From NCBI RefSeq assembly GCF_010586825.1, contig NZ_JAAAGB010000002.1, positions 248,001 through 312,000 of the forward strand: a stretch of DNA of 64,000 bases, written 5' to 3'. Under the pieces are notes generated by a model. The model did not search any database. It was given only the letters and a program-made list of their open reading frames with translations, and had not been told where the DNA came from. This stretch comes from Draconibacterium mangrovi. Its GTDB lineage: Bacteria; Bacteroidota; Bacteroidia; Bacteroidales; Prolixibacteraceae. A program made the position numbers and the translations under genes. Of the stretch, positions 7,185 to 62,448 are shown one piece after another (position 1 is the first letter of the stretch; each line of letters begins with the position of its first letter).

Positions 7185-8729
7185 TTAAAACGGAGGAATT
7201 CCATGTTTTTTAGCTGGCATAGAAGCACTCTTGTTTTCAGAAACCTGTAAGGCATGTAATATGCGTGAACGTGTTTCGCTAGGCTCGATTACCTCATCGA
7301 TATAACCTTGTGCAGCAGCAACATAAGGATTGGCAAACTTCTCTTTGTACTCCTCGATTTTTTGCTGGCGCATTTCTTCCGGGTTCTCGGCTTCAGCAAT
7401 TTCTTTACGGAATACTATGTTCGCAGCACCTTCCGGTCCCATAACTGCAATTTCTGCAGTTGGCCATGCAAAAACAAAGTCGGCACGCAGGTGACGCGAG
7501 TTCATGGCAATGTAACCACCACCATAGGCTTTACGCACAATAACGGTTATTTTTGGAACTGTAGCTTCGCTGTATGCATAAAGAATTTTTGCACCGTGAC
7601 GAATTACTCCGGCATGCTCCTGGTCAACTCCCGGCAGGTAGCCCGGCAGGTCTTCCATAGTAACAATAGGAATGTTGAAAGCATCGCAGTAACGGATAAA
7701 ACGAGCCGCTTTGTCCGAGCTGTCAATATCAAGCACTCCCGCAAGTACCATTGGCTGGTTGGCAACAAAACCAACAGTTTCGCCATTCATACGACCAAAA
7801 CCAACGATGATGTTTGGTGCAAAACGCTCCATAACTTCGAAGAATTCAGAACCATCGGTGATGCTTTTTAGAACATCGCGCATATCGTAAGGAATTCTTG
7901 GATCCGCAGGAACAATATCTTCAACCTTAACTCCTTTTAACGGAGCTTTAGGTTTATGTGCCAATGCTTTTTTCAGGTTACTACGTGGAATAAAGCTGAT
8001 CAGCGTTTTTATCTGATCGAAACATTCCATTTCAGTTTCGGCATAGAAATGTGCATTTCCGGTAACTTCGGCGTGTACTTTGGCACCACCCAGTTCTTCC
8101 ATCGAAACTTCTTCGCCTAAAACTGATTTAACCACTGATGGTCCGGTAATAAACATTTTCGAAATGTTTTCTACCACAAAAACAAAGTCGGTAAGTGCAG
8201 GCGAATAAACCGCTCCACCGGCGCAAGGGCCAAGAATTACCGAGATTTGTGGAATAACACCTGAAGCCAGTGTGTTACGGAAGAAAATCTCTCCGTAACC
8301 GGCCAGTGAGTTAACACCTTCCTGGATACGCGCACCACCCGAGTCGTTAATACCAATTAACGGAACACGCATTTTCAACGCATGGTCCATAATTTTAGTG
8401 ATTTTACGCGCGTGCATCAAACCCAGAGAACCACCGGCAACGGTAAAGTCCTGGGCAAAAATACAAACCGGTTTGTCGTATATCGTACCGGTACCGATAA
8501 TAACACCGTCTCCATGTAAGGTTTTACCTTCCATGCCAAAATCTTTGGCGGCGTGCTCTACAAATAAGTCGTATTCGTGAAATGAGTTTTTATCTAACAA
8601 GGCCAGGATTCGTTCACGGGCTGTGAGCTTACCCATTTTTACCTGTTTCTCAATGGCTTTATCTCCACCACCTTTTTGTACTTCTTTCTTTCTTTTACGA
8701 AGATCGAGTACGTTACTTCTTAGTGACAT
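7185..8729 (-). CDS. Acyl-CoA carboxyltransferase subunit (propionyl-CoA carboxylase beta / methylmalonyl-CoA decarboxylase alpha)
   Basis: A 514-residue carboxyltransferase of the PccB/MmdA type, which moves a carboxyl group between biotin and propionyl-CoA/methylmalonyl-CoA. Two crotonase-like halves are visible. The N half has HARKITKIMDHAL, GINDSGGARIQEGV and GPCAGGAVYSPALTDF. The C half begins after ADPRIPYDMRDV and contains VANQPMVLAGVLDIDSSDKA, EDLPGYLPG and KAYGGGYIAMNSRHLRAD. Length is standard. It heads a two-gene operon with the biotin carrier 20 bases downstream. In Bacteroidota this pair normally serves the succinate-propionate pathway or odd-chain/branched amino acid catabolism. 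Substrate specificity is inferred from the family, not proven. Confidence 0.9.
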   Translation of the reverse strand: MSLRSNVLDLRKRKKEVQKGGGDKAIEKQVKMGKLTARERILALLDKNSFHEYDLFVEHAAKDFGMEGKTLHGDGVIIGTGTIYDKPVCIFAQDFTVAGGSLGLMHARKITKIMDHALKMRVPLIGINDSGGARIQEGVNSLAGYGEIFFRNTLASGVIPQISVILGPCAGGAVYSPALTDFVFVVENISKMFITGPSVVKSVLGEEVSMEELGGAKVHAEVTGNAHFYAETEMECFDQIKTLISFIPRSNLKKALAHKPKAPLKGVKVEDIVPADPRIPYDMRDVLKSITDGSEFFEVMERFAPNIIVGFGRMNGETVGFVANQPMVLAGVLDIDSSDKAARFIRYCDAFNIPIVTMEDLPGYLPGVDQEHAGVIRHGAKILYAYSEATVPKITVIVRKAYGGGYIAMNSRHLRADFVFAWPTAEIAVMGPEGAANIVFRKEIAEAENPEEMRQQKIEEYKEKFANPYVAAAQGYIDEVIEPSETRSRILHALQVSENKSASMPAKKHGIPPF

Positions 8730-47944: not shown

Positions 47945-48111
47945 TTGTTTAGGGGAAGGACCAGTTGATTATACTTTTGATTCATTACAGCTTTTATGCC
48001 GTTGATATGGAGCAGGAACAATTCTGGGTTTTAGCACGTAACCAATATCCTTTAAGTAAAGGATCCGGTTTGGAATTATTAATAATATCATCCTTGCAAT
48101 AGTTTGCAGCA

Positions 48112-48158
48112 AATAAAAGTCCCGGGCTGTATTTTCGTCACTAATACAGTCCGGGACT
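48112..48158 (-). terminator. Terminator-like hairpin for the secreted unknown gene
   Basis: A 16-bp stem, AGTCCCGGGCTGTATT (48118-48133) with AATACAGTCCGGGACT (48143-48158). Read on the minus strand it is followed by a TTTTATTT tail. It lies 72 bases beyond the stop of the gene at 48230. Confidence 0.65.
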
Positions 48159-48174
48159 CTGAAATAAAGAAGCC

Positions 48175-48207
48175 ATTCAGCAGGTGACTTCAAGTTACCT
48201 GCTCAAT
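48175..48207. repeat. Palindrome, copy 2
   Basis: ATTCAGCAGGTGACTT (48175-48190), one C, then AAGTTACCTGCTCAAT (48192-48207). The left arm is identical to copy 1 at 47912; the right arm has two changes, one of which keeps a G.U pair. Confidence 0.7.
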
Positions 48208-48229
48208 AGCTTTAAGGCCGATAAGTTGT

Positions 48230-48931
48230 TTACAACGAGTTATAATAATCAACAAGTTGTGTTAGGTCTTCGGCGCTTTTAAATTTAACTTTGTTTTTCT
48301 TAATAAAAGTGTCAATCTCTTTTTTGTGCGCGTTAATAAGCGCATCTATATCTTTACTATTGCGTATTTTAATAGCCGGCAATCCTGTCTTTTGCAGGTA
48401 GTATTCGTCGGGTTTGGGAATAAACATAGGCGGTTGTGCTTCTTTGTAGGCGGCCTCTTCTTTGGCTTCCTGGTAAAAAATATCAGGTTTGGCCAGTAGG
48501 TTAAGATTACCTTCTGCCAACACTTTAAAAAATCCTTTTTTGTTATTCTTTGTGGAAGTTAAGTAATCGGTAAATATCATTTCTATTTCGCCCATTTTAG
48601 CCCGCTCAACTGTTTCGGGGTGGGCCAGTTCCAAAATAGTGCCATCATTTGTTTTAAATTCAAGGTTGTCGTTATAAATGTTGTAGCGAAGCGGTACGTC
48701 AGGAACCTGGGTTTTGGCGGTGGTATAAATTGTGCCGTTCACAAAAGTGTCATCAAGGTAGGGCGAACCTTCTATTTTATATTGAGCAATTGTGTTACTT
48801 TGTTTATTGGTGGTCATCTGGTTGGTTCTCAGATAATCCATTTTTTCAATAATCTCGTAATTCAGGTATTGGGCCTGCGAGAAAGCTATACCTATGATTA
48901 CAAGTAAAAGTGTTAATGCTGATCTTTTCAT
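48230..48931 (-). CDS. Secreted protein of unknown function
   Basis: A 233-residue protein with a signal peptide (MKRSALTLLLVIIGIAFSQAQ; cleavage near residue 19-20) and no lipobox or later membrane segment, so it is periplasmic or exported. The mature part begins YLNYEIIEKMDYLRTN; it contains GSPYLDDTFVNGTIYTTAKT, PLRYNIYNDNLEFKTNDGT and a C-terminal helical, Lys-rich segment with INAHKKEIDTFIKKNKVKF. I recall similar short secreted proteins in other Bacteroidota but no function. It is a single gene, convergent with susD 3. A weak TATCTTTA box lies 24 bases before the ATG. Confidence 0.75.
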   Translation of the reverse strand: MKRSALTLLLVIIGIAFSQAQYLNYEIIEKMDYLRTNQMTTNKQSNTIAQYKIEGSPYLDDTFVNGTIYTTAKTQVPDVPLRYNIYNDNLEFKTNDGTILELAHPETVERAKMGEIEMIFTDYLTSTKNNKKGFFKVLAEGNLNLLAKPDIFYQEAKEEAAYKEAQPPMFIPKPDEYYLQKTGLPAIKIRNSKDIDALINAHKKEIDTFIKKNKVKFKSAEDLTQLVDYYNSL

Positions 48932-49123
48932 TTTTTATTGTTTATTGTTTCGTTTAAAGATATAAAATTAAGATAAAATCAGAAGCCCAATTTAATGTAA
49001 AGCATACTATGTTTTTTCAAACCGCTTTTTCCAGTATTCAACGCTGAAGCCTTTTGTTACAATAGCAATCTTGATTGTTATGAAAATAATTGGCGGGGTT
49101 TTAAGTAAAATCCGGTTCAAAGC

Positions 49124-50584
49124 CTACTTCCTGCGATCTTCCAGCTTTCGCAAACGGCTGCGCAATGCCGACCGGCTGATTCCCAGATATTCGGCAACTG
49201 CGGTTTTGGCGCCATCGAAACGTTTAATGGCTTTGGCCACAATTTCCACCTCCAGTTCCTCAATTGAAAAACCCTCTTCGGGGAGCACTACTTCACCCGG
49301 ACGGAGAGGAATTCCTTCCACTTTTTCGGGCACACTGGCTGTATTCTCAACAAACAAATGCGCCAGATGCCAGGGTTGAAGCTGCTCGTCGTCGAACAAC
49401 AACACCACGCGTTCAATGGCATTTTGCAGTTCGCGAACATTGCCCGGCCATTCGTGTTTTTCCAGGATAGAAGCGGCCGGTTTCGAAATAAATTTAAAGG
49501 CACGGTTGCGTCGTTGCGAGTACATTTCGAGAAAATACTGTGCCAGCGGTAGAATCTCCTCTGTCTTTTCCCTGAGTGGTTTTAGCAGAATATTTCCCGT
49601 TTCGATGCGGTAGAACAGATCCGAGCGAAATTTATTCTGGTCGATCAGGGCTTTTAACTTTCGGTTGGTGGCAAAAACAAAACGCACATCCAGTTTTATC
49701 AGCTGACTGCCTCCCACGCGGTAAAGTTCGCGCTGCTGCAACACCCGTAAAAGTTTGGCCTGCATTTCCAAAGGCAGTTCGCCAATCTCGTCTAAAAATA
49801 AGGTGCCACCCTGTGCCTGCTCCATTTTTCCGATATATCCGCCGGCGCGTGCCCCGGTAAAAGCTCCCGGCTCGTACCCAAACAATTCACTTTCAAAAAG
49901 TTGCTCCGAAATGGCCGCACAGTTAACCGGGATAAAAGGCCCCGGACTTTCGAGTCCTTCCCCGAAATGGATTAGCCGGGCCACCATTTCCTTGCCGGTA
50001 CCGGTTTCGCCCTGTATCAGCACCGGGATATCCCTGCTTTTATGAAATTTCAGCGACAGGTCTACCACCTGTTTCATGTGTTTGGAGAACACCGCCATTT
50101 TGCCCGATTCCTGAATGTCGCGAATGGTGTTTTGCAAGGCCCGAATCCGTTGCGTAGATGCATTTACTTCCTTGCCCATCTTTTGTACCGATTCTTTCAG
50201 GTCTTTGTTTTCATTGATCAGTTGGTAGCGCTCCTGAATCTTGGAAACGGTCATCGCCAGTTCATCGATATTTACAGGCTTTAAAAGGTAATCGGCCGCG
50301 CCCAGTCGCAGTGCTTCAATCGAATGGGTTATTTCCGAAAAACCGGTCATAAGGATAACCGCGATTCCGGGGTAATCCTGTTTTACGCGTTTCAGCAATT
50401 CCAAACCACTTATTCCGGGCATTTTTATATCCGAAATAATCAATTCGAATTTATCTTTTTGCAGAATTTCCAGGGCCGCCGTTCCGTCTTCGGCATCGGT
50501 AACATCCAGCTTCAGGTCTTCCACCAGAAATTCAACAATTGCTTCCCTGCTTAATTGGTCATCTTCAACTACCAGTACTTTCAT
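49124..50584 (-). CDS. Sigma-54-dependent NtrC-family response regulator
   Basis: A 486-residue regulator with three domains. The receiver (about 1-120) has [12 protein letters not shown] and the phospho-acceptor Asp52 in [10 protein letters not shown], with Lys102 in LLKPVN. The AAA+ domain (about 160-400) has the Walker A GETGTGKE (192-199), the sigma-54 contact GAFTGA (240-245) and the Walker [11 protein letters not shown]. The C-terminal Fis-type helix-turn-helix (about 440-486) has [20 protein letters not shown]. It activates RpoN-dependent promoters. It overlaps the kinase gene upstream by 20 bases, so the two form a two-component pair; the position behind lactate genes suggests that lldP is a target. 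Confidence 0.94.
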
Positions 50585-53006
50585 TTTCAGTGTCTTTAGT
50601 AAATGTTATCACAAACCGAACACCATCTCCTTCCCGGTTCTCGTAACGAATGTCGCCATTCATTTTTGTAACAAATGTTTTTACAATGGCCAGTCCCAGT
50701 CCCGTTCCGCCTTTGCTTTTTTTGGTTGAATAAAAAGGATCGAACAACTGCTCGCCGATCGAACTTTCAATCCCGGCACCATTGTCTTCCAAAATCAGTT
50801 CAATCTGCTTTTCCTTTTTAACGGTACGAACGTTTATTTCCTTTTTCTCGCGTTCCACCTCATCGAGGGCATGAATGGAATTCACCACCAGGTTGATAAC
50901 CACCTGTTCAATCTGAATTTTATTTCCTTTTAAATACAACTCGCCGGCAGCCAGTTTCTGGGTAGCCACAATGCCGTGATTCCGAATTTGCCTCCGCAGC
51001 AAATCGAGCGCATTTTTTACAATTGTGTTTAAATCAACCATCTGAAGTTCATCCGAATCGGGAACAGGATTTACCCAGTAATTGCGCATGTGGCTTACAA
51101 TTTCATCGATGCGTTCGGTACCTTTCGAAATGGCTTCCAGCTTGCGAACAATATAACTTCCGGTCTCGGTTCCTTCGCGCCTCATTCTCCGCAACACGGT
51201 ATCGGTCGTAATTTTTATGGCGTTTAGCGGCTGGTTAATTTCGTGTGTAATTCCCCCGGTTATTACCCCAATGGAGGCCAGACGCGAAGTACGCTCCATA
51301 ACACGCACCGCCTCGGCATGTTGTTTTTCCATGCTCAAAAACTGGTTCATCTGGAAGTTCCGCTCCCAGGCGTTGGCAATTACCCGCACCAGTGTTAAAA
51401 GCAGGCGTTGTTCGTCCTTTTCCCAAACATGAGGCTCCTGGAAAGCAAAACCGGCCATCCCGTTTATTTTATCCACCACTTTTATCGGAATCAGCATCAC
51501 CGAACGGATACCCCGATTTTCAAAAAATTGCCTTTCGCCTTCGCTTAGCTCCGAAAGATCGGGGCTTACAATAGTTTCATTTTTAAGAATCCGTGTGATG
51601 ATATTTTGCATGGCCTCGGTTCGGCTACTGTCCATTTCTTCAATACCTTCTCCTTTTTCCGAGGTCATTGAACCGATTATCTGGCCAATCTTATCGTCTT
51701 CGGTAAAGCTGTACAAGCCTACTTTTCCCACATGAGTTGACCCCGTAATTGCATTCAAAACCTTATCGATCACCTGTGTGAAATCGTTGGTGGAATTCAG
51801 GTAGGTAACAATTTCGGCCATTAGCCGCTGTTGTTTAAATGCCAGCGTTAAATGCTCCTGTTTTAAGAGCAACAACTTCTCGGCCTTTTTACGGCGCTGA
51901 ACCGACCGGCTTAAAACCAGAATGATAACAAAAGCCACTACCATCACCAAAAGCACCACTACGATGGTTGTTTTGTTGAGGGAATAAAAATTCATCGGTT
52001 TGTTGATGATCCAGGCCTCGGCAGGAAGTTTATTTTTATCGATGTTATACTTTTTCAGCAGATTCTGATCAAACATGTAAAGCCCCTGCAAATCTTCTTT
52101 TATGGGAATTTCCGATGTTTTCTCGCCATGCAAAATGCGTAATCCCATTAATGCCGCTTCTTTCCCATGGTCAATACCACGAATTAGCTTTCCGCCAACG
52201 ATACCGCGGTTTAAAAAGAACTCCCAGCTGGAATAAACCGGAACTTTTGCATTTTCAGCCACCAGCCTCGATTCTTCTTTGTACGATATAAATTCCTGGT
52301 TTTTATCCTTGTTGAAAGTGAGCATCAGGATCAGGTCGGGCGAATTTATACGGGCCACTTCTTCAGCCAGTTCATCAAAGCTTACATTGTCGATAAAATG
52401 AAGTTTGTTTCGGTAATTTTCGGGTAGCGCATCCAGCATCATCCGGTTAATTTTGGCTGTGGTGGTGTACAAATCGTTCACCACATAAATGAGCCCCGAT
52501 CCGGGATGCAGTTTTTCCATGATATCGATGGTTGCCTTAAAATCGGGGCGTTCGGTTATCCCGGTAATCATTCCATCGTTGATAACGCGCTCATCGATTT
52601 GCTGGTTAATTCCACAAAAAACAACGGGAATGTTCTTGTAAATTTCCTCGCGGTTATCGAGTAAGAATTTCAACGCATCATCGTCAACAGTTATAATCAG
52701 ATCAAATTGATTTTGTTGCAGACGTTCGCGGTAAAAACGTTCAATTCGAGAAAAATAAAGCGAATCGGTGTATCTTTTTGTATCGAGGTATTCATAAAAA
52801 AGTTCGACTTCTTCATCGTGTGCCGACATAATTTCCTGTATTCCGCGCGACACATTATCCGACCAATCCAGCCCCTGGTGATACGAATGCAGCACCAAGA
52901 TTTTATGCGACGGCTGTTCGTAAGCAAATACCGATACCGTAAAAATCAAAAATAGGGGAAGCAGTAAACAACCGAAGAACAACTTCTTTATTTGTGAATT
53001 TTTCAT
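50565..53006 (-). CDS. Sensor histidine kinase with periplasmic ABC substrate-binding-like sensor
   Basis: An 813-residue membrane kinase. After a signal segment (about 10-28), residues about 33-330 resemble the ABC substrate-binding (DUF534/YtvB-like) fold: [46 protein letters not shown] and [18 protein letters not shown]. One membrane segment follows (about 348-372), then a GAF-like domain (about 395-560), the HisKA box with His588 in [15 protein letters not shown], and an HATPase domain with [38 protein letters not shown]. It should sense an extracytoplasmic small molecule and phosphorylate the adjacent NtrC-type regulator. A 178-base gap separates it from the dehydrogenase gene. Lactate as ligand is inference. 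Confidence 0.93.
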
Positions 53007-53128
53007 AAGCCTATTCCTGTCCCTAATTTTCTTTTAAGATAAACAATTAAATATAAGTTTTTCTTTCAACCATAATGAAATAAATCAGAAGGAGTTGGAG
53101 ATGCCAACTATGCTCCATAACGAAAACA

Positions 53129-53152
53129 GGGGAAACTACAAGTAGTCTCCCC
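53129..53152 (-). terminator. Weak terminator or attenuator after the dehydrogenase-porin gene
   Basis: On the minus strand GGGGAGACTAC and GTAGTTTCCCC form an 11-bp stem with a tiny loop and one G.U pair. The tail TGTTTTCG is only moderately T-rich. It could lower expression of the kinase-regulator pair relative to the transporter and enzyme genes. Confidence 0.5.
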
Positions 53153-53184
53153 TCCCTCCTCAACTCAATACCTCTGCCGGAATT

Positions 53185-56100
53185 CTAGAATGAATATTTC
53201 ACGTGTAATTGCAAGCGGGTATTTCCCACTTTCTCCACATCCGTTACATTCAAACCGGAATCGGCTGTGCAGTATCCTGCATAAGTTTGGTTTAATTCCA
53301 ACATCACTTTAATTGCCTGGTTTCCCATTATTACTCTTGGCGATATACGCGCAACATAATCAATGTTAGTGCCCCGGGCATAAACCTCTCCGCCATCGGC
53401 AATTGGGTCGCTGCTACCCAAATTGTTCGCCATACCTGCGAAAAGGCCAAAATTCACCTTCGAAAAGCGCGTCATTACTTCTGTCCACCACGAAAAAGTA
53501 TTCACCGGTGTATATTTAAAACTGTTTGCTTCTGTATTGATTTCGCTAACCCCATAACCTCCCAGCATGGTTAGATCGGTGCCGTTTTGTGCATAAATAC
53601 CCTGAAGTTTAAAAGTCATTGATTTGCTTTTTAGAACGGTATATGCAATAGCATGATAGGTTCTGAGTGATTCATCCACATAATTGCCGTCGCTGTTTAC
53701 AAAGCGCGGAACAAGGCTTTTGGTTCCGGCTACTAAACCAATCAGGCTTTTGCCCGGCGCACCGTATTCCAGGTGCACATCAAATTCAGGAATCGACGAC
53801 TGGCGAATATAAACAGAGCTGAGTCCTTGCGGCCCGAGCGATTTGTAATCCAGCTGCGATAAAGCCGTTAACGATCCTACAAATTTGTCAGAAAACTTGC
53901 GCGTCACTCTGATTTGCGGATTTCGTGCCAGCGTTGAAATTGGCGCTGCTGCTCCCCATGACGAAACCTCGGGGTAGCACGACAAAACAAACATCGGGCT
54001 CCAGTACTGGCCAATCATAATGCTTGTTTTTTCATAGTCGAGTTTGGCCATGGCGTGACGCAGACGTACCGTACCGATTTTATCGTTTGCATTTCCAACA
54101 AAATCGAATTCAATAAGACTGCTTAAATCTCCGCCCCACAATTTGGAGCCTGAAGATTTTGCACGCAGACGGCTGTGCAAAGCAAAAAAGTTAAAGTTAC
54201 CTTTTGCGTTAATATCAACTCCATTATCATCGTAAACAATGGGTGCCGGATATAAAACTACATCGCCGTCGCGGGCCGAAACCACCTGCCGACTGTCGAA
54301 AACCGCCTCGGTAGATACAAATCCGCCTACTTCCACCTTTATCTTGTCCTGTGCATTCACCAAAGATGTTAGCGACAGCAGTAAAATCATCACGGCTGTT
54401 GCCATTGCAGTTTTGGTTTTCTCTTTAGCAACAGGTTTGGTTTCCTTTTTAACCGATTCTTTTTTGGGTGCCGGTTCGGTAACCTGATCGACCAGATACA
54501 CAATCGATTTGTGGGAAATTCCGCTGTTTTTCGACAAACCAATCTCACAGGTTCTTGAAGTGGAGTATCCTTGTTTTACTTCATCAGGCAGCTGAATCTT
54601 TAAATTCCGAAGACCATGTTCGTTTAATTCGGGATACGAAAAACCCCTGTCGCCGGCAAAACCACAACAGTTGGTTTCGGGCTGAACTACTTTTTCAGCA
54701 CATAACTTCGCCAGATCGACCAAACGGGCGTCCATACCCATTTTTTTCATACTGCAAACCGCAAAAACAGAAACGGGATCAGCCACCGGAGTAAAACTTA
54801 ATTCATCTTTTAAATATTCCCAAATGAAATCTACCGGTTCGTACAATTTTAAGCGGTCTTTCATATTTTCTTTCATGGTAAACAGGCACGGGCTCATATC
54901 GCATAAAACCGGATATTTGCCGTATAGGCTGGCACTTTTCAACGCTTCTTCCAGTTCATTTGATTTTCTCAAGCCCTGCTCTTTAAATCCTTTGCTGGAA
55001 TAGGACATTCCACAACAAAGACTATTCAGTTTTTCGGGATAGATAATTTCGTATCCGGCCTTTTTTATCAGGCGTTCCATAACCGCAGTCAGCTGTTCTT
55101 CTCCTTTTTGATCTTTTGATTTTCCCATCGACCGGTTGATACATGACGGGAAGTAAACCACCTTTTTAAGATTTGCTGAATCGACCTTACCGGGCACGAT
55201 TTTTTTCGCACCCGATGGCATGTATTCGTTCCAAAGCGGCACTTTTTTGCCCGAAATTTTATGAATACCGTTTGAGGCAGCATTCATAAAACCGGTTCCC
55301 AGTAGCGAATGTGCAAGATTTACGACCGACAGCGAACCACGCATAACTTTGGTGGTTAAGGCCATATGATCGGCCAGCCAGTCGGCCACTTTGTTTTGCT
55401 TTGGTGTATGTTTTTGATAACGAATTTCCTTGATCAGTTTTCCGGTATCAATTTTCACAGGGCAACTTAAGGCACAAAGCCCATCGGTAGCACAGGTTTC
55501 GTCGCCCGAATAATTGTACGAATTTTCGAGGGCCGCCAATTCATGAACTTTCTCGCCGCTTACCCGCAAACGTGAAATCTCGCGGTAAACCGCCACACGC
55601 TGGCGCGGCGACAAGGTAAGTTCGTTGGCCACGCACGAGGGTTCGCAAAAACCACACTCAATACATTTGTCCACCTTTTCTGATGCAGCCGGAAGCGGTT
55701 TCAGATTTTTCAGATGCGATTGCGAATCATCGTTCAGGATAACTCCCGGATTAAGCAGATAATGAGGATCAAAAATCTGCTTGATCTTTTTCATCAGATC
55801 GTAGGCTTCCTTTCCCCATTCGTGCTCAACATAAGGGGCCATGTTCCTGCCCGTTCCGTGTTCCGCCTTTAAAGCGCCGTCGTATTTATCAACTACCAGT
55901 TTTACCAGGTCGTCCATAAAATTCTGATAGCGGGTTACTTCTTCTTCACTGGCAAAATCCTGTGTAAACACAAAGTGCAGGTTTCCTTCCAGCGCATGAC
56001 CAAAAATCACCGCTTCATCATAACCGTATGTTACAAAAAGAGCCTGCAAATCGAGCGTGGCCTGTGCCAGTTTTGGCACCGGGAAAGTCACGTCTTCGAT

Positions 56101-57288
56101 AATTACGGTTGTGCCGGTTTCTCGCATGGCACCTACCGACGGGAATAAACCTTTTCTGATTTTCCACAAAGCCATAAATTCAGACGGCACATCGGTAAAT
56201 GATACCGGAATTTCGGCAGGAATATCGCTTATCGTTTCTAAAATCTCATCGATCTGTTCAGCCAGAACTGTTGGCTCTGATGCGCGGGTTTCCACCAGAA
56301 TGGCACTGGCCCCTTCCGACAAATCTTTCAGGTAGGCCGGCACTCCGTCCTGATCTTCAACCGAACGAAGACCTGCACGGTCGATCAGTTCAACTGCAGC
56401 CACCGGGGCACTTTTTAATAACGAAACCGCGTTGCATGCTTTTTCAATATCGGGGAAAACCATCAGTGAACTGGCTTTGAATTTGTGTTCGATTACCGTT
56501 TTGTAGGTGATCTCGGCAATAAAACCCAAAGTACCTTCCGAGCCGATCATAATGTGCTCGATCACATCAAACGGATCGGTAAAATCGACCAGCGCATTCA
56601 GGCTGTAACCCGTTGTATTTTTCATTTTGAACTTGTCGCGTATACGCTGCGCCAAAGGCTCGTTGGCATTTACCGATTCCACCAGCTCGGTGAGGTTAGC
56701 CAATAGTCCTGCATGCGTTTCCCTGAAAGCTTCTTTACTTTTTTCATCACCGGTGTCGAGCAACATTCCGTCGTGGAAAACAATTTTCATGCTTTCAACC
56801 GTTTTGTAAGAGTTTTCGGAAGTACCGCAACACATTCCGCTGGCGTTGTTGGCAGCAATTCCGCCAATCTGAGCCGCATTTATCGACGCCGGATCAGGAC
56901 CGATTTTACGTCCGTATTTTGCTAAAATAGCATTAGCTCGTGCACCGATAATTCCGGGTTGCAGACGAATACTCAGGCCGTTCGCCAGTACTTCGTGCTT
57001 TTGCCAGTGAGCGCCGGCAATCACCAGTATCGAATCGGTGATGGCCTGACCTGAAAGACTGGTTCCGCCAGCCCTGAAAGTAACCGGTAGTTTTCGTTTT
57101 TGGGCTTCCTGCAATATTGTTGACACTTCGTTTTCGTCCCTGGCCTTGATCACCAGCTTTGGAATCAGGCGATAAAAACTCGCATCGGTTCCAAATGCCA
57201 GCGTGTGCATCGGATCGTGAAACATTCGGCTCTCATCGATCACCGACAATAACGAATCGTAGAGTGATTTATATTCTCCGCTAAGCAT
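53185..57288 (-). CDS. FAD/Fe-S D-lactate dehydrogenase fused in frame to an outer-membrane porin
   Basis: A single 1367-codon frame. Residues about 1-540 are an FAD-binding type 4 oxidase (RAGGTSLSGQ, GPDPASINAAQIGGIAANNASG, GSEGTLGFIAEIT, AEHGTGRNMAPYVEHEWG). Residues about 540-640 bind Fe-S clusters (CIECGFCEPSC from Cys542, then CATDGLCALSCPV). Residues about 700-935 are two CCG domains (CCGMSYSSKG, NCCGFAGDRGF). This is the Dld/glycolate-oxidase type that oxidises D-2-hydroxyacids at the inner membrane. A Lys/Pro/Glu linker (about 940-961) leads to a signal peptide at Met962 (MATAVMILLLSLTSLVNAQ) and a 387-residue beta-barrel with GQYWSPMFVLS, ending LHVKYSF. ATG 962 (base 54405) follows A-rich sequence and may be a second start. 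Adjacent lldP supports a lactate role. Confidence 0.88.
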   Translation of the reverse strand: MLSGEYKSLYDSLLSVIDESRMFHDPMHTLAFGTDASFYRLIPKLVIKARDENEVSTILQEAQKRKLPVTFRAGGTSLSGQAITDSILVIAGAHWQKHEVLANGLSIRLQPGIIGARANAILAKYGRKIGPDPASINAAQIGGIAANNASGMCCGTSENSYKTVESMKIVFHDGMLLDTGDEKSKEAFRETHAGLLANLTELVESVNANEPLAQRIRDKFKMKNTTGYSLNALVDFTDPFDVIEHIMIGSEGTLGFIAEITYKTVIEHKFKASSLMVFPDIEKACNAVSLLKSAPVAAVELIDRAGLRSVEDQDGVPAYLKDLSEGASAILVETRASEPTVLAEQIDEILETISDIPAEIPVSFTDVPSEFMALWKIRKGLFPSVGAMRETGTTVIIEDVTFPVPKLAQATLDLQALFVTYGYDEAVIFGHALEGNLHFVFTQDFASEEEVTRYQNFMDDLVKLVVDKYDGALKAEHGTGRNMAPYVEHEWGKEAYDLMKKIKQIFDPHYLLNPGVILNDDSQSHLKNLKPLPAASEKVDKCIECGFCEPSCVANELTLSPRQRVAVYREISRLRVSGEKVHELAALENSYNYSGDETCATDGLCALSCPVKIDTGKLIKEIRYQKHTPKQNKVADWLADHMALTTKVMRGSLSVVNLAHSLLGTGFMNAASNGIHKISGKKVPLWNEYMPSGAKKIVPGKVDSANLKKVVYFPSCINRSMGKSKDQKGEEQLTAVMERLIKKAGYEIIYPEKLNSLCCGMSYSSKGFKEQGLRKSNELEEALKSASLYGKYPVLCDMSPCLFTMKENMKDRLKLYEPVDFIWEYLKDELSFTPVADPVSVFAVCSMKKMGMDARLVDLAKLCAEKVVQPETNCCGFAGDRGFSYPELNEHGLRNLKIQLPDEVKQGYSTSRTCEIGLSKNSGISHKSIVYLVDQVTEPAPKKESVKKETKPVAKEKTKTAMATAVMILLLSLTSLVNAQDKIKVEVGGFVSTEAVFDSRQVVSARDGDVVLYPAPIVYDDNGVDINAKGNFNFFALHSRLRAKSSGSKLWGGDLSSLIEFDFVGNANDKIGTVRLRHAMAKLDYEKTSIMIGQYWSPMFVLSCYPEVSSWGAAAPISTLARNPQIRVTRKFSDKFVGSLTALSQLDYKSLGPQGLSSVYIRQSSIPEFDVHLEYGAPGKSLIGLVAGTKSLVPRFVNSDGNYVDESLRTYHAIAYTVLKSKSMTFKLQGIYAQNGTDLTMLGGYGVSEINTEANSFKYTPVNTFSWWTEVMTRFSKVNFGLFAGMANNLGSSDPIADGGEVYARGTNIDYVARISPRVIMGNQAIKVMLELNQTYAGYCTADSGLNVTDVEKVGNTRLQLHVKYSF

Positions 57289-57306
57289 AATTTCTTTGTT
57301 TAAATT

Positions 57307-58962
57307 TTAAAGTGGTAATGGATTTAGCCCCATAAACAGAACGGATCCGAGAATCAGCAGAATGATCAGGTAATAGGCAAACGAGGGCACCGAATTAGTG
57401 CGAATGATCCTTCCTTCCGACCCAATGCAACCAACCGTAGCCGACACGGCCACCACGTTGTTCACACAAATCATATTTCCAACTCCTGCTCCAATTCCCT
57501 GCATGGCCAGAATCAGAATTTGCGGTATGCCCAACAAAGTTGCTGTTTCGAACTGGAACGAAGCAAACAGGATATTTGAAACCGTTGCTGAACCCGACAT
57601 AAAGGCGCCCAATATGGCGATTAGCGGTGCAAAAATAGGGTAAGCATGTCCTGAGATAGATGCGGTTGTACGCGCCATTTCGGTAAGCATACTTTCCAAA
57701 CCTGCCCCGTTTGTTCCCGAGTTTAGCATGATCTGCACCAAAGCAACCCCGCTGAATAAAGCTATTGCAGCTCCTTTTATTTGTTTGAAAGTCATTTTCC
57801 AGGCTGCCTTTACCTCTTTCATCTTCATTTTATGAAAAACGTGGGTAAACAGTGCCACCACAATAAAGGGCAGCGTGCCCGGTAAGTAGGCCCATTTTAA
57901 CGCATAATCAAGTTTATCGATTCCGAATAAATTATTGATTTGTATGGTTTGTGCTGCCAAAATTCCTTTTAATCCAAATTGCGGAATACGCGTCACAACC
58001 AGGATAACCGCGATGAGCAAATAAGGTGACCACGCTCTTAACAGCGACATTTTTGCTTCGCCAACAGTTCCGGTATCGGTATTCGAAAACCAGCTTTTTG
58101 CCCACTTCGATTCGTGCGGAAAGTCCCATGTTTTTTTAGGAACAAGAAACCCTTTTTTAGCAGCCACAATAATAATTCCCAAACCAATAAACGATCCCAC
58201 CAAGCTGGGCAGTTCGGGACCGAACACCACAGCAATCAACGCGTAAGGAACCATAAATGCCAGGCCGGCAAATAAAGCAAACGGAGCAGCCTGCAAAGCA
58301 GGTTTAATCGATTTCTCCTTACCGAAAATTCGGGTCATAATCATTAAACCCAGCAAAGGAAGCAGCGTACCTGCCACTACATTGGGCAATGCCACCCATT
58401 TGGTCAGCATCATTTGAAACACCGTCGGATCGGCTCCAACCTGTTGCAAATTGGTTTCAAGCGTGCTCATTGCGCCAAAAATGGGTGTTCCAACTGCACC
58501 AAACGGAACAGGGACACTGTTAAATATCAGCGCTACGATTGCCGCAGCCAGCGGAGGGAAACCCAGTCCGACCAGCAGTGGCCCTGCCAAAGCCGCAGGA
58601 GTACCAAAACCGGCAGCTCCCTCGATAAATGCACCGAACATATAACCGATGATGATCGCCTGAATACGACGATCGCGGGTGATCCCCTGGAATCCGTTGT
58701 TAATGGATGCCATGGCACCCGATATTTTTAATGTATTCAGAATCAGAATGGCTCCGAATATGATGATCAGAATGTCCATTGCTTTTAAGACACCGAAAAA
58801 AGAATATGCGGTAACACTCAGAATATCGATCTTCCAATAGACCAATGCTATTAAAACAGCCAGGCCCCAGGACAATGGAAGCGCCTTTTTTGCTCCCCAG
58901 TTAAATCCCGCCATCAATACGATTGTTACTACAATTGGTAAAAAAGCCAATAACGCGTTCAT
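57307..58962 (-). CDS. lldP: L-lactate permease family transporter
   Basis: A 551-residue LctP/LldP transporter with about 13 membrane segments; it brings lactate (and often glycolate) across the inner membrane with protons. I chose ATG 58962 ([19 protein letters not shown]), a normal family start; the frame extends upstream to 59037 but that part is not membrane-like. Conserved strings are [73 protein letters not shown] and [17 protein letters not shown]. It is first in the operon and 18 bases upstream of the lactate dehydrogenase gene. Repeated GCCATTTGGAAC sites lie 190-250 bases upstream. Confidence 0.93.
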
Positions 58963-59030
58963 AAGTTTTAGATTTAAATTAAACATTAAAGCCATCTGGT
59001 TTAAGACGACGCGGCCCTTAGCCAATTGGA

Positions 59031-59214
59031 ATGCCAAAAAATAGAGAAGCTGATTTATTTACTGGAGAAGACAATCGTAAATAACAGACAAACAGATTAT
59101 TATGGTTTGTATTTTTTGTTTTGGGGAGATAATTGTCAAATGAATAAAAACGGGCCATTTGGAACATGTGGGCCATTTGGAACGCCAAAAGCAGACAAAT
59201 GTGCCATTTGGAAC
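59031..59214. promoter_or_regulatory. Repeated GCCATTTGGAAC sites upstream of lldP
   Basis: Three exact copies of GCCATTTGGAAC lie at 59154-59165, 59172-59183 and 59203-59214, and a variant GCCAATTGGAAT at 59031-59042. The third is part of a dyad, TGCCATTTGGAACATGGCA. The variant lies in a sequence that on the minus strand reads TTGGCATTCCAATTGGCT, which resembles a sigma-54 -24/-12 promoter except that the invariant GC at -12 reads GG. The geometry, distal sites 110-170 bases before a promoter, fits an NtrC-type activator, and such a regulator is encoded in this operon. Binding is inference. Confidence 0.5.
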
Positions 59215-59298
59215 ATGGCAGGATTTGTGAAAAATAAACACTTTCGGTATGCGTTCGTTGACGGGATTCAATTCTGGCTTAAAAAACAATCGCAGTAA

Positions 59299-59660
59299 TT
59301 GGTGAAATACCCTGCGATTCTGTTCTTTATGAAAGCGATATGTGATTTTATTGCGGGCATTAAAGAAAAGATGATTAAGGAGAAAGAAAACACTATCGCG
59401 ATGAACTCAAGGAGCACCCGCACAGTAAGTTATGGATGGGTGTCGTCGAAATAAAAAACGGTACAAGAAATATCATTTATAGTTATTATGTTTATTTTTA
59501 GTGCAGTAAAAACCACAGACGTTGAATCCGTGCTCTGAAATAAAATCTACACAAAAACTACAGATATACGCCCAAATCAGTTGTATATAAGTATTCGGTA
59601 CCAGAGATACAGATGTAATACATTATTAACTGCAAAAACAAACATTCAGATAACAACATT
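59299..59660. other. Intergenic region with a possible decayed small gene
   Basis: A 41-codon frame runs from ATG 59329 to TAA 59454. In a shifted frame from about 59387 to 59502 the translation is more protein-like (RDELKEHPHSKLW, GVVEIKNGTRNIIY), as if a small gene had suffered a frameshift. Otherwise no feature was seen. Confidence is low because short frames arise by chance. Confidence 0.25.
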
Positions 59661-60488
59661 ATGATAGAATTAGAGCCAGACAAATATTCGCTTCTTGAGG
59701 CACCGTTGAAAGAAGTGAAAATAAACCATCTTTTTGCTCGCTCGGTGATTGAAAAGAAGGTGAGGGGAAAGGTTTTCGTCGACAACAAAGAGAATCCCAA
59801 TACCTTTTATGTTATCCACCCTTATGGGATGAGCCTGTTGTTTGGCGATACAAAAAACGAGACTTTTAACAGGCTCTTTCTTAATTACTGTTTAAATTGT
59901 AACAAGGAAAGAAAGACGCACGAATGGATGCAGGCCTTTCCAAACGATTGGGACGATACTTTAAAAACACTGTTCGAGGGGAAACTGATTAGCGCGCCAG
60001 ACTCCGGCGATACTCCTGACGAATTTGTGGAGCTAAATACCCGGGTAAACTTTAAATTCAACCTTGAAAAATATCTAGTTTTCAAAAGGAATGCGATTAA
60101 GAATAACTACTCCATTATAAGAACCGATAAAAACAGTTTCAGAGAAATGAAAGGTAGTGTTGTTCCCGCTCGTTTTTGGAACAATGCCGACGATTTCTGC
60201 AAAAATGGCGTCGGTTTTAGTTTATATTATAAGGAGAAGTTGGCAACAACAGCTTATTCGGCATTTATTTTCGACAAGGAACTGGAATTGGGAATGGAGA
60301 CTTTTCCGGAATTCAGAGGGAAAGGATTTGCGCAACATGCCTGTTCAGCATTGATCGATTATTGCTTAACCAATAAATACGAACCTGTGTGGGCGTGTAA
60401 ATTAACAAATATTGCATCTTATAAACTTGCTCAAAAGTTGGGATTTATTCCGGATATTACACTTCCATATTATCGATTGGTATTGTAA
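59661..60488 (+). CDS. GNAT family N-acetyltransferase
   Basis: A 275-residue protein of the longer GNAT type (a Bacillus-like GNAT_acetyltran family with an extra N-terminal domain). The C-terminal catalytic domain (about residues 160-275) has the acetyl-CoA loop in FPEFRGKGFAQHACSALIDYCL, preceded by a beta-strand ELELGMET and followed by NIASYKLAQKLGF, the usual Asn and Leu-Gly-Phe ending. The N-terminal 130 residues have several cysteines (NYCLNCNKERKTHE) and no recognisable motif. The acceptor is unknown. The gene has no partner; the next gene starts 126 bases later with its own promoter. Confidence 0.82.
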   Translation: MIELEPDKYSLLEAPLKEVKINHLFARSVIEKKVRGKVFVDNKENPNTFYVIHPYGMSLLFGDTKNETFNRLFLNYCLNCNKERKTHEWMQAFPNDWDDTLKTLFEGKLISAPDSGDTPDEFVELNTRVNFKFNLEKYLVFKRNAIKNNYSIIRTDKNSFREMKGSVVPARFWNNADDFCKNGVGFSLYYKEKLATTAYSAFIFDKELELGMETFPEFRGKGFAQHACSALIDYCLTNKYEPVWACKLTNIASYKLAQKLGFIPDITLPYYRLVL

Positions 60489-60585
60489 ATTTGAGAAAAG
60501 CTATAAAATTTGAAACGAACATGAATTTTAATATGCTAAAATATATCCAGGAGCATACTTAAAATTCATCGGGAGTTATATACTA

Positions 60586-60593
60586 TACCTTTG
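60586..60593 (+). promoter_or_regulatory. -7 box (TACCTTTG) for the cupin gene
   Basis: An exact TAnnTTTG 21 bases before ATG 60615. A TTG codon at 60591 that could extend the frame lies inside this box, which favours the ATG as start. Confidence 0.5.
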
Positions 60594-60614
60594 AAAACAA
60601 ACAATTTTAATAGT

Positions 60615-61073
60615 ATGAAAAAGACAGAAAAGATTTCGGAAAACAAGAATTACACAGCAGTAAATGTTGGAAGTTTAAACGATATTAAATCCTATTCGCT
60701 CATTCATCCGAAAACCGGTGCAGAGGTTAAAGGGAAGGTGTTTGTGAAAGCTCCGGTAAAAGCTACCGGAACGGAAATATCTTTTACTACCATTCCGCCA
60801 AAATCAGAATTGGGGTATTTTCATATCCATTACAAGGACGAAGAAGTTTATATTATTCTCAAAGGATCAGGTTATTACCAGGTTGATGATGATTGTTTTC
60901 CGATAGAAGAAGGCAGCGTGATAAGAGTTGCCCCGGCAGGTGTGAGAAGTCTGTGCAATACCTCCTATGAAGAGATGATTTATATTTGCATCCAGGCCAA
61001 AGAAAATTCGTTGGAAGAACATACAACCGATGATGGGAAAAGAATTGATGTTACGCCTAAATGGAAAATATAA
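60615..61073 (+). CDS. Small cupin-domain protein
   Basis: A 152-residue single-domain cupin with no signal peptide. Motif 1 is seen as GYFHIHYKDEEVYIILKGSG, giving two His and one Glu of the metal site. Motif 2 (IRVAPAGVRSLCNTS) has Arg-Ser where the fourth metal ligand His is usual, so the metal site may be altered. The start at 60615 was chosen because the alternative TTG lies in the promoter box. Function could be a sugar/amino-acid isomerase, dioxygenase or binding protein; sequence does not decide. It is monocistronic. Confidence 0.82.
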   Translation: MKKTEKISENKNYTAVNVGSLNDIKSYSLIHPKTGAEVKGKVFVKAPVKATGTEISFTTIPPKSELGYFHIHYKDEEVYIILKGSGYYQVDDDCFPIEEGSVIRVAPAGVRSLCNTSYEEMIYICIQAKENSLEEHTTDDGKRIDVTPKWKI

Positions 61074-61182
61074 GGAAACAAAACGCCCTGCAACAAATAG
61101 TTATACGGAAGGCGAGAGGCGTCTTGGTTTGATAAGCCAAATCAGGATTGCCACTGTTGCGGGTTACTTGAGTTGGTGACCG

Positions 61183-62448
61183 TTAAGTTTTCCGTTTCTT
61201 CTTTTTAGCCGCCGGAAACAATACATTATTTAAAATCAGCCGGTAACCCGGAGAGTTGGGATGCAGGCTCAGGTCGGTTGGCGGATCGCCAATCAGGTGG
61301 CGGTAATCTTCAGGATCGTGACCGCCGTAGAATGTCCAGAATCCTTTGCCTTGCTCGCCATGAATATATCGTGCTTCGTTGGCCGGTTTGTTCTCGCCCA
61401 ATACCAGCACATTCGATTTTAACACCTCTTTGCGATACGCTGTTGTTTGCCCCATAAAACCTTTAATCAGGTTGCGGTGGTTTTGGCAAAGCATGGTGGG
61501 TATCGGGTCCCACTTGGCCGAAAAATCAAACAGGGTAAAGTAATCGTTTTCGCGGGCAACATGGCGGTGGTCGGTAGCATCAATATTCGAAAACTCGTAC
61601 ACATACGGGCTTTTCTCCAGCTTAAAATTTTCGAATGCAAAGGTGTTGTGGAAATCGAGTTTCTCATCAACGTTGGCTGCCATCGGGTCGCCATCAAACA
61701 TGTTTTCACAAATATCAACACCCACTGCTGCCAGCGAAATATCATAAGTATCGGTAGCGGCACACATGGCAAACAGGAAACCGCCGTTCTGCACGTATTT
61801 CTGTATTTCGCGTGTAACAAACGATTTCATTTCCGACACTTTCATAAAACCCAGTTTTTGAGCCAGCTGTTTGTTAATGCTCACTTCTTCCTGGTACCAC
61901 GGCATATGTTGATACGAGCGCCAGAATTTACCAAATTGCCCCGTAAAATCTTCGTGGTGCAGGTGCAACCAGTCGTAATCTTTTAGGTTGCCGTTTAGTA
62001 TTTCTTCGTCGTAAATAATATCGTAGTTAATTTCAGCGTAGGTTAAAACCATGGTCACGGCATCGTCCCACGGTTGTTTGTTGGGTGGCGAATACACCGC
62101 AATTTTGGGTGCTTTATTCATTGCCACGGCATCCTGATTCATATCGGGCTGGGCAATTTCGTTTAAAATTCCTGAAGCCTGTGCATCGCTGATCACCTCG
62201 AAACTAACGCCACGAATCACACACTCATTTTCAATCTCGGGGTAGTGCTGCATTAAAAAACTGCCTCCGCGGTAGTTGAGCAGCCATTTTACCTCAATGT
62301 CCTGTTCCAACACCCAGTAGGCAATACCGTACGATTTCAGGTGGTCCTTTTGCATGTCATCCATGGGAATGAGCAGCGAAACGGCTCCGGCATTTAATGC
62401 CATGAAGAGCAGTGCCGGCAAAAGGAATATTTTTATGAGTGTGCGCAT
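61183..62448 (-). CDS. Secreted class-I GATase-like protein (often labelled asparagine synthetase B)
   Basis: A 421-residue exported protein. A signal peptide (about residues 1-23, ending NAGA) precedes SLLIPMDDMQKDHLKSYGIA and WLLNYRGGSFL. Residues about 115-260 resemble a glutamine-amidotransferase-like fold: KIAVYSPPNKQPWDDAV, DYDWLHLHHEDFTGQFG, and GGFLFAMCAATDTYDI, whose Cys sits at the nucleophile elbow. The rest has DHRHVAREND and EARYIHGEQGKGFWTFYGGHDPEDY. Databases often call such proteins asparagine synthetase B, but no synthetase ATP-pyrophosphatase domain is present and the protein is exported, so that name is probably wrong. The C-terminus is very basic (KKKKRK). Substrate unknown. 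Confidence 0.72.
   Translation of the reverse strand: MRTLIKIFLLPALLFMALNAGAVSLLIPMDDMQKDHLKSYGIAYWVLEQDIEVKWLLNYRGGSFLMQHYPEIENECVIRGVSFEVISDAQASGILNEIAQPDMNQDAVAMNKAPKIAVYSPPNKQPWDDAVTMVLTYAEINYDIIYDEEILNGNLKDYDWLHLHHEDFTGQFGKFWRSYQHMPWYQEEVSINKQLAQKLGFMKVSEMKSFVTREIQKYVQNGGFLFAMCAATDTYDISLAAVGVDICENMFDGDPMAANVDEKLDFHNTFAFENFKLEKSPYVYEFSNIDATDHRHVARENDYFTLFDFSAKWDPIPTMLCQNHRNLIKGFMGQTTAYRKEVLKSNVLVLGENKPANEARYIHGEQGKGFWTFYGGHDPEDYRHLIGDPPTDLSLHPNSPGYRLILNNVLFPAAKKKKRKT

Follow-up and report, generated by a model that had tools for sequence, protein, structure and literature searches.

A single gene in the 64,000-nucleotide stretch of Draconibacterium mangrovi DNA analysed here (the window) encodes a lactate dehydrogenase (LDH) fused in frame to an outer-membrane porin. 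The same fusion recurs in five taxa and so is not a product of chance. We consider it probable that the gene is translated into one precursor, which would be cut by signal peptidase I to send the porin to the outer membrane and leave the LDH held close to the quinone pool by the spent signal peptide at its tail. A preliminary description of this DNA offered three explanations, of which the best supported is the first, a genuine fusion that signal peptidase cleaves. Throughout, L labels denote loci of relatives and G labels genomes, the window genome being G000.

One frame for a dehydrogenase and an outer-membrane barrel

The frame of 1367 codons seen in the preliminary description was confirmed and lies on the minus strand. 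It contains no stop over 1367 amino acids, and the opposite (plus) strand across 53185-57288 has 51. The further account of its parts also held: a complete FAD/Fe-S dehydrogenase in the N-terminal half, followed by a linker, a hydrophobic signal-like segment (residues 961-979) and a beta-barrel part of 388 residues (980-1367).

53185..57288, minus strand: fused gene, single frame of 1367 codons plus stop, with counterparts in L102, L104, L105 and L106
54484..57288, minus strand: residues 1-935, Dld-II-type FAD/Fe-S LDH, by Pfam matches above cut-offs and NCBIfam matches below equivalog cut-offs
54406..54483, minus strand: residues 936-961, Lys/Pro/Glu linker with net positive charge, which would act as the n-region of an internal signal
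54352..54408, minus strand: residues 961-979, predicted signal/anchor segment, hydrophobic, whose final VNA precedes QDK and forms a signal peptidase I-type site
54403..54405, minus strand: ATG codon 962, the second start proposed in the preliminary description; present otherwise in D. sediminis alone among the fused genes
53188..54351, minus strand: residues 980-1367, predicted mature DcaP-like outer-membrane barrel of 388 residues, by AF2 model, Foldseek and profile match

A fused gene of 1367 amino acids is also present in D. sediminis (L102 = G127), whose genome was assembled separately and whose protein is 99% identical to that of the window in both halves. The other fused taxa are Bacteroidales MAG.147 (L104), where a contig edge cuts the 5' end of the gene, a Carboxylicivirga metagenome-assembled genome (MAG; L105) and Prolixibacteraceae JC049 (L106 = G012).

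In the LDH half, the Pfam domains FAD_binding_4 (residues 43-179), FAD-oxidase_C (269-516), Fer4 (~539-613) and CCG (710-803) scored above their cut-offs. The Fe-S and CCG cysteines are invariant across the aligned relatives (alignments of 2 and 9 rows). No NCBIfam equivalog model reached its cut-off for this half; the GlpC model matched residues 536-933 below that level (E 4.5e-21). GlpC is the membrane-bound subunit of GlpABC. Among solved structures, those closest in sequence are glycolate oxidase (9qgz) and LctD (7qh2), which match over residues 243-518. A make-up of FAD, 4Fe-4S and CCG domains is termed "Dld-II" in passages of PMC4481167, which use this name for a D-lactate dehydrogenase characterised in Shewanella oneidensis. 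The LDH half carries the complete Dld-II set in one chain (FAD_binding_4, FAD-oxidase_C, 4Fe-4S and CCG) and shares with Dld-II an adjoining lactate permease, but unlike Dld-II it bears a C-terminal signal segment and a porin. The neighbouring permease gene, lctP, suggests D-lactate as the predicted substrate.

The window's porin half matched none of the Pfam models. AF2 modelled the porin part (432 residues, 69 aligned sequences) as a beta-barrel with a mean pLDDT of 87.9. DSSP assigned 20 strand elements to this model, 17 of them at least 8 residues long, compared with 16 strands in solved DcaP. The first-ranked Foldseek match was 6eus, DcaP of Acinetobacter (E 9.5e-21, TMt 0.78, 16% identity), and the second was malate-bound Omp32. 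In a profile search of the PDB, 6eus was the sole match at E <= 0.01 (E 1.5e-8). According to passages of PMC12338516, the 16-stranded DcaP barrel is preceded by an extended periplasmic N-terminus that forms a coiled coil. The window porin lacks such an extension, its first barrel strand beginning in the model at residue 984, ~5 residues past the predicted cut after residue 979; we therefore call it DcaP-like in fold and do not file it as DcaP. It resembles DcaP (6eus; PMC12338516) in fold and sequence of the barrel and in an organic-acid gene context, and differs in the missing long extension, the low identity and the fusion with an enzyme. The abstract of PMC12338516 reports di- and tri-carboxylates for DcaP3, and its text does not mention lactate. 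Operon context and the link of DcaP to carboxylates lead us to infer that lactate may pass through the window porin.

Porins of this DcaP-like family are widespread, occurring in Bacteroidota, Ignavibacteriota, KSB1, Calditrichota and Aminicenantes (loci L102-L181), and none of five scanned members reached a Pfam cut-off. Another porin of this family, not fused and ~28-30% identical, is encoded in the window genome (G000:C21:49962-51134; L003). A family that matched no Pfam model is now tied to lactate genes, which gives it a testable substrate.

The junction and the proposed precursor

No 19-mer of the window's fused protein is more hydrophobic than segment 961-979. The corresponding internal segment ranks first in 5/5 fused proteins (hydropathy 1.79-1.92), with a net charge of +1 to +4 in the flank towards the LDH and of 0 to -2 in the flank towards the porin. 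The residues preceding Q[DE]K are VNA in the window and D. sediminis, AQA in L104 and L106, and LKA in L105, giving the pattern [AVL]xA. Nothing similar was found in the unfused neighbour LDHs (n=4), for which the best 19-mer in the last 60 residues reached 0.42. The window genome encodes a bacterial signal peptidase I.

The closest precedent is FbcH of Bradyrhizobium, a cytochrome b/c1 precursor that is cut by signal peptidase. The window's gene has the make-up of a precursor of this kind, with one frame, two complete proteins and an internal signal with a cleavage motif. Both systems have one gene, an internal signal sequence and two products. However, the products of FbcH share one inner-membrane complex, whereas here a cytoplasmic dehydrogenase is joined to an outer-membrane porin. 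Fusion precursors cut by signal peptidase are thus known in kind, and it is the combination of a cytoplasmic enzyme with an outer-membrane barrel that is unusual. Normally, a cytoplasmic enzyme and an outer-membrane protein are separate translation products. Searches of open-access literature, judged by titles and the openings of abstracts, found no report of such an LDH-porin fusion.

From these sequence features we infer the following course of insertion, cleavage, anchoring and lactate passage. The LDH half (residues 1-935) would be translated and fold in the cytoplasm. On emerging, the Lys-rich linker and segment 961-979 would be taken up by the Sec translocon in an orientation that keeps the LDH in the cytoplasm, in the manner of a signal anchor, and signal peptidase I would cleave after VNA979. 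The porin half would traverse the periplasm to the outer membrane and act there as an organic-anion channel. Given that the first strand begins ~5 residues past the cut, cleavage would be needed for the barrel to reside in the outer membrane with the LDH inside. The LDH would retain the spent signal peptide, a basic and hydrophobic tail, which would tether its C-terminus to the membrane close to the quinone pool. An anchor at this position is plausible, since the Fe-S half is GlpC-like and GlpC is membrane-bound. Because the frame runs from one half into the other without a stop, any LDH that is completed bears the tail, and internal initiation could only add porin. LDH and porin would be produced in a fixed ratio. 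In its fullest form, the proposal describes an envelope-spanning polyprotein, yielding a cytoplasm-facing, tail-anchored respiratory LDH and an outer-membrane lactate channel 1:1, with the signal peptide reused as a permanent anchor. We advance this form tentatively, as one that could well go either way.

Several observations weigh against the processed precursor with an anchored LDH. Signal and anchor were assessed by hydropathy, charge and motif, without a trained predictor. The LKA site of L105 is weaker, with a flank of just +1. A hydropathy of 1.8-1.9 is modest for a permanent anchor, and later removal of the tail is possible. The AF2 model of LDH plus tail reached a pLDDT of 54.3 with 9 sequences and was not used. 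A GTG at -34 relative to the cut (YLVDKVTK), common to L104, L105 and L106, would give an internally initiated porin a basic n-region. Finally, the closest unfused relative (L103) has two overlapping genes, and the fusion is therefore dispensable.

The GTG bears on an alternative in which internal starts, at ATG 54405 or at non-ATG codons, make most of the porin separately and the read-through tail of the LDH is tolerated. An A-rich stretch precedes ATG 54405, and the fused genes contain further non-ATG codons that would yield a basic n-region (TTG at -35 in L102, TTG at -27 in L104 and GTG at -31 in L105). However, ATG positions are not conserved. The in-frame ATGs within 60 codons before the cut are those at -18 and -13 in both the window and L102, at -16 in L104, at -11 in L106 and at -6 in L105; those of L104, L105 and L106 occupy positions other than 54405, inside or after the hydrophobic core. 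No in-frame ATG of any fused gene leaves a Lys or Arg before the core, hence none provides a basic n-region, unlike 73 of 76 unfused relatives, in which Met is followed by Lys or Arg before the core (the other three have no Met there). The GTG at -34 lies inside the conserved end of the LDH, and the matching codon is GTC in the window and L102 and GTA in the unfused L103 and L109. Moreover, the fused product would still be made despite internal starts. We consider it unlikely that internal initiation supplies most of the porin. ATG 54405 itself was rejected as the normal porin start, being shared with D. sediminis only and lacking the basic n-region; the second protein that the preliminary description had derived from it is accordingly a weak candidate.

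This stable, selected fusion allows three tests: of whether Sec export of a barrel can begin from a signal sequence 960 residues into a chain, of whether signal peptidase acts on a natural bacterial polyprotein with parts bound for different compartments, and of whether an enzyme can take a leftover signal peptide as its anchor.

Distribution, age and origin of the fusion

A search with the porin half in 140 genomes of the family gave eight matches at E <= 1e-60, three of them fused (G000, G127 and G012). The full protein, searched in 120 family genomes (a sample that does not contain G127), gave 46 LDH rows that were near full length and at least 48% identical; 2 of these were fused (G000 and G012). 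In the order sample of 393 genomes, the porin-half search returned, among the matches listed, no long frame other than the window genome's own. The class sample of 395 genomes (E <= 1e-150) contained the fusion in the window genome only and the LDH alone in six others. Viral contigs contained no relative.

A scan of a named genome collection with porin alignment A2 yielded 157 relatives, of which 80 were kept for locus analysis. Four of these are fused (L102, L104, L105 and L106), and in none of the others does the frame stay open for more than 90 codons ahead of the porin match. Another four have an LDH gene of its own immediately before the porin gene (L103 = G101, L109 = G268 and the Lutibacter MAGs L110 and L133), and in these species the neighbouring LDH and porin genes stand behind lctP. 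One more of the 80, L107 of Balneicella, has a dld in pieces. An LDH within the locus was not found in 71 of the 80, many loci being shortened by contig ends. The open frame of L029 (1307) was rejected as a fusion; there, a downstream oxidoreductase-like frame shares the phase after a stop.

The preliminary description had held that a fusion would be refuted if close relatives all had two separate genes. Separate genes do occur in four species, but not in all relatives, since five taxa are fused. The four species provide a hint at the origin of the fusion. In L103, the closest unfused relative (82% identical to the window in the LDH and 74% in the porin), the LDH stop and the porin start overlap by 4 bases, ATGA, with the frames one step apart (~7940-8000; = L096 8290-8350). 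This overlap may represent the arrangement from which the fusion arose, or else a fused gene that has since been split.

At fourfold sites where both members of a pair encode the same residue, L104, L105 and L106 differ from one another in 61-69% of cases (411-464 sites per pair). The nonsynonymous divergence (dN) between them is 0.066-0.10 for the LDH and 0.083-0.13 for the porin. Between the window and L102, synonymous divergence (dS) is 0.09-0.12 and dN is 0.002-0.010, with only 4 changes in the linker. These values, which are rough counts with multi-base codon changes apportioned by a fixed rule, show purifying selection on both halves. Judged from the divergence, the fusion is old.

A recent loss of a stop codon, or an error of assembly or sequencing, is thus exceedingly improbable. 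The overlapping frames of the closest unfused relative, one step apart, would fit such an event. However, there are five fused taxa from separate assemblies and the divergence is old; the lost stop codon considered in the preliminary description is excluded by the five taxa together with the 61-69% fourfold-site difference among three of them.

The junction of 31 codons has drifted among L104, L105 and L106 to 39-68% identity, with the frame open and the length equal. This drift, and the fact that L103 manages with separate genes, would agree with a different fate of the same precursor, in which membrane proteases trim the signal remnant, the final LDH is soluble and the fusion is a neutral result of overlapping genes. 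Against this stand the retention of the fusion across the fourfold-site difference and the net positive flank on the LDH side in 5/5 proteins. We regard neutral fusion with a trimmed, soluble LDH as rather doubtful, if less so than separate initiation of the porin.

The trees built from the two halves, of 17 and 19 rows, agree with each other. In both, L103 is sister to the Draconibacterium pair (support 99/98 and 99/95), and L104, L105 and L106 group together, forming with the pair and L103 one six-member clade (99/99 and 99/97). L109 and the Lutibacter pair, with unfused neighbouring genes, fall outside this clade. No porin adjoins the eight sampled family LDHs that stand nearest to these six in the LDH tree, and 27 of 27 loci of such LDHs (L006-L032) show neither porin nor lctP within flanks of up to 1.5 kb. 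The Lutibacter porins cluster with stand-alone porins, apart from the six. The arrangements in L103 and L109 make it likely, though not certain, that separate neighbouring genes preceded the fusion; the porin-free closest LDHs and the placement of the Lutibacter porins speak against a simple history. Within the six, there was either a single fusion that was later split in L103, or fusion took place twice.

The lactate operon and its relatives

The link to an adjoining lactate permease drawn in the preliminary description proved right, the gene being lctP, and is extended by a kinase and an NtrC-type regulator downstream.

57307..58962, minus strand: lctP, lactate permease, 551 amino acids from ATG 58962; Pfam Lactate_perm and TIGR00795 above cut-off
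50565..53006, minus strand: sensor histidine kinase with an ABC_sub_bind-like sensor region, downstream of the fused gene
49124..50584, minus strand: NtrC-type response regulator (Response_reg, Sigma54_activat and HTH_8 by Pfam)
59023..59036, minus strand: sigma54-like promoter element TGGCATTCCAATTG, 74 bases before lctP, similar in 7/7 related operons
59160..59175, minus strand: palindromic candidate enhancer TGGCCCACATGTTCCA, similar in 6/7 related operons

lctP lies upstream of the fused gene, 18 bases separating its end from it. Comparison of relatives suggests ATG 58962 as its start and not TTG 59037 of the open reading frame list, which sits at the promoter. A kinase of the window's type is also found near the porin or lctP in L102, L103, L105, L106, L107 and L109, and its start in L104. 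RpoN is encoded in the window genome.

The consensus of sigma54 promoters is TGGCAC-N5-TTGC. A [TC]GGCA-N6-TTG element occurs at -54 to -75 before lctP in 7/7 related operons, the final C of the -12 box being present in L106 only. The palindrome TGGnnCnnnnGnnCCA or TG[GA]nACnnnnGTn[CT]CA lies at -205 to -222 in 6/7 operons and is missing in L107. Whole-window density predicts 0.009 (promoter) and 0.005 (palindrome) occurrences per 300 bases, for patterns that were fitted to these same sequences. A fixed sigma54 pattern occurred in the whole window about as often as chance predicts (14 occurrences, 11.1 expected) and missed the lctP promoter, which emerged from the comparison of relatives. Taken together, these findings make a sigma54 promoter plus upstream activator site before lctP likely. 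Rfam (48000-62000) and a tRNA scan of the whole window found nothing. The combination of permease, LDH, porin and regulators points to a role in lactate uptake.

According to passages of PMC4481167, the luo lactate operon of Desulfovibrio contains a lactate permease and Dld-II subunits and has a predicted sigma54 promoter and NtrC-type regulators. The window's operon has the permease, a Dld-II-type LDH and an NtrC-type regulator in common with it, along with a likely sigma54 promoter, and differs in its porin, a word absent from the text of PMC4481167.

In the Flavobacteriaceae, the Lutibacter MAGs have lctP, LDH and porin as three separate genes in this order (L110 235-6026 and L133 963-6787); the window's kinase and regulator had no match in these loci at E <= 1e-8. 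In Balneicella halophila (L107 = G154; L097 6520-13418), the order is histidine kinase, response regulator, lctP, porin and lutABC, followed by dld in open pieces. The porin thus remains beside lactate genes in Balneicella though the type of LDH changes.

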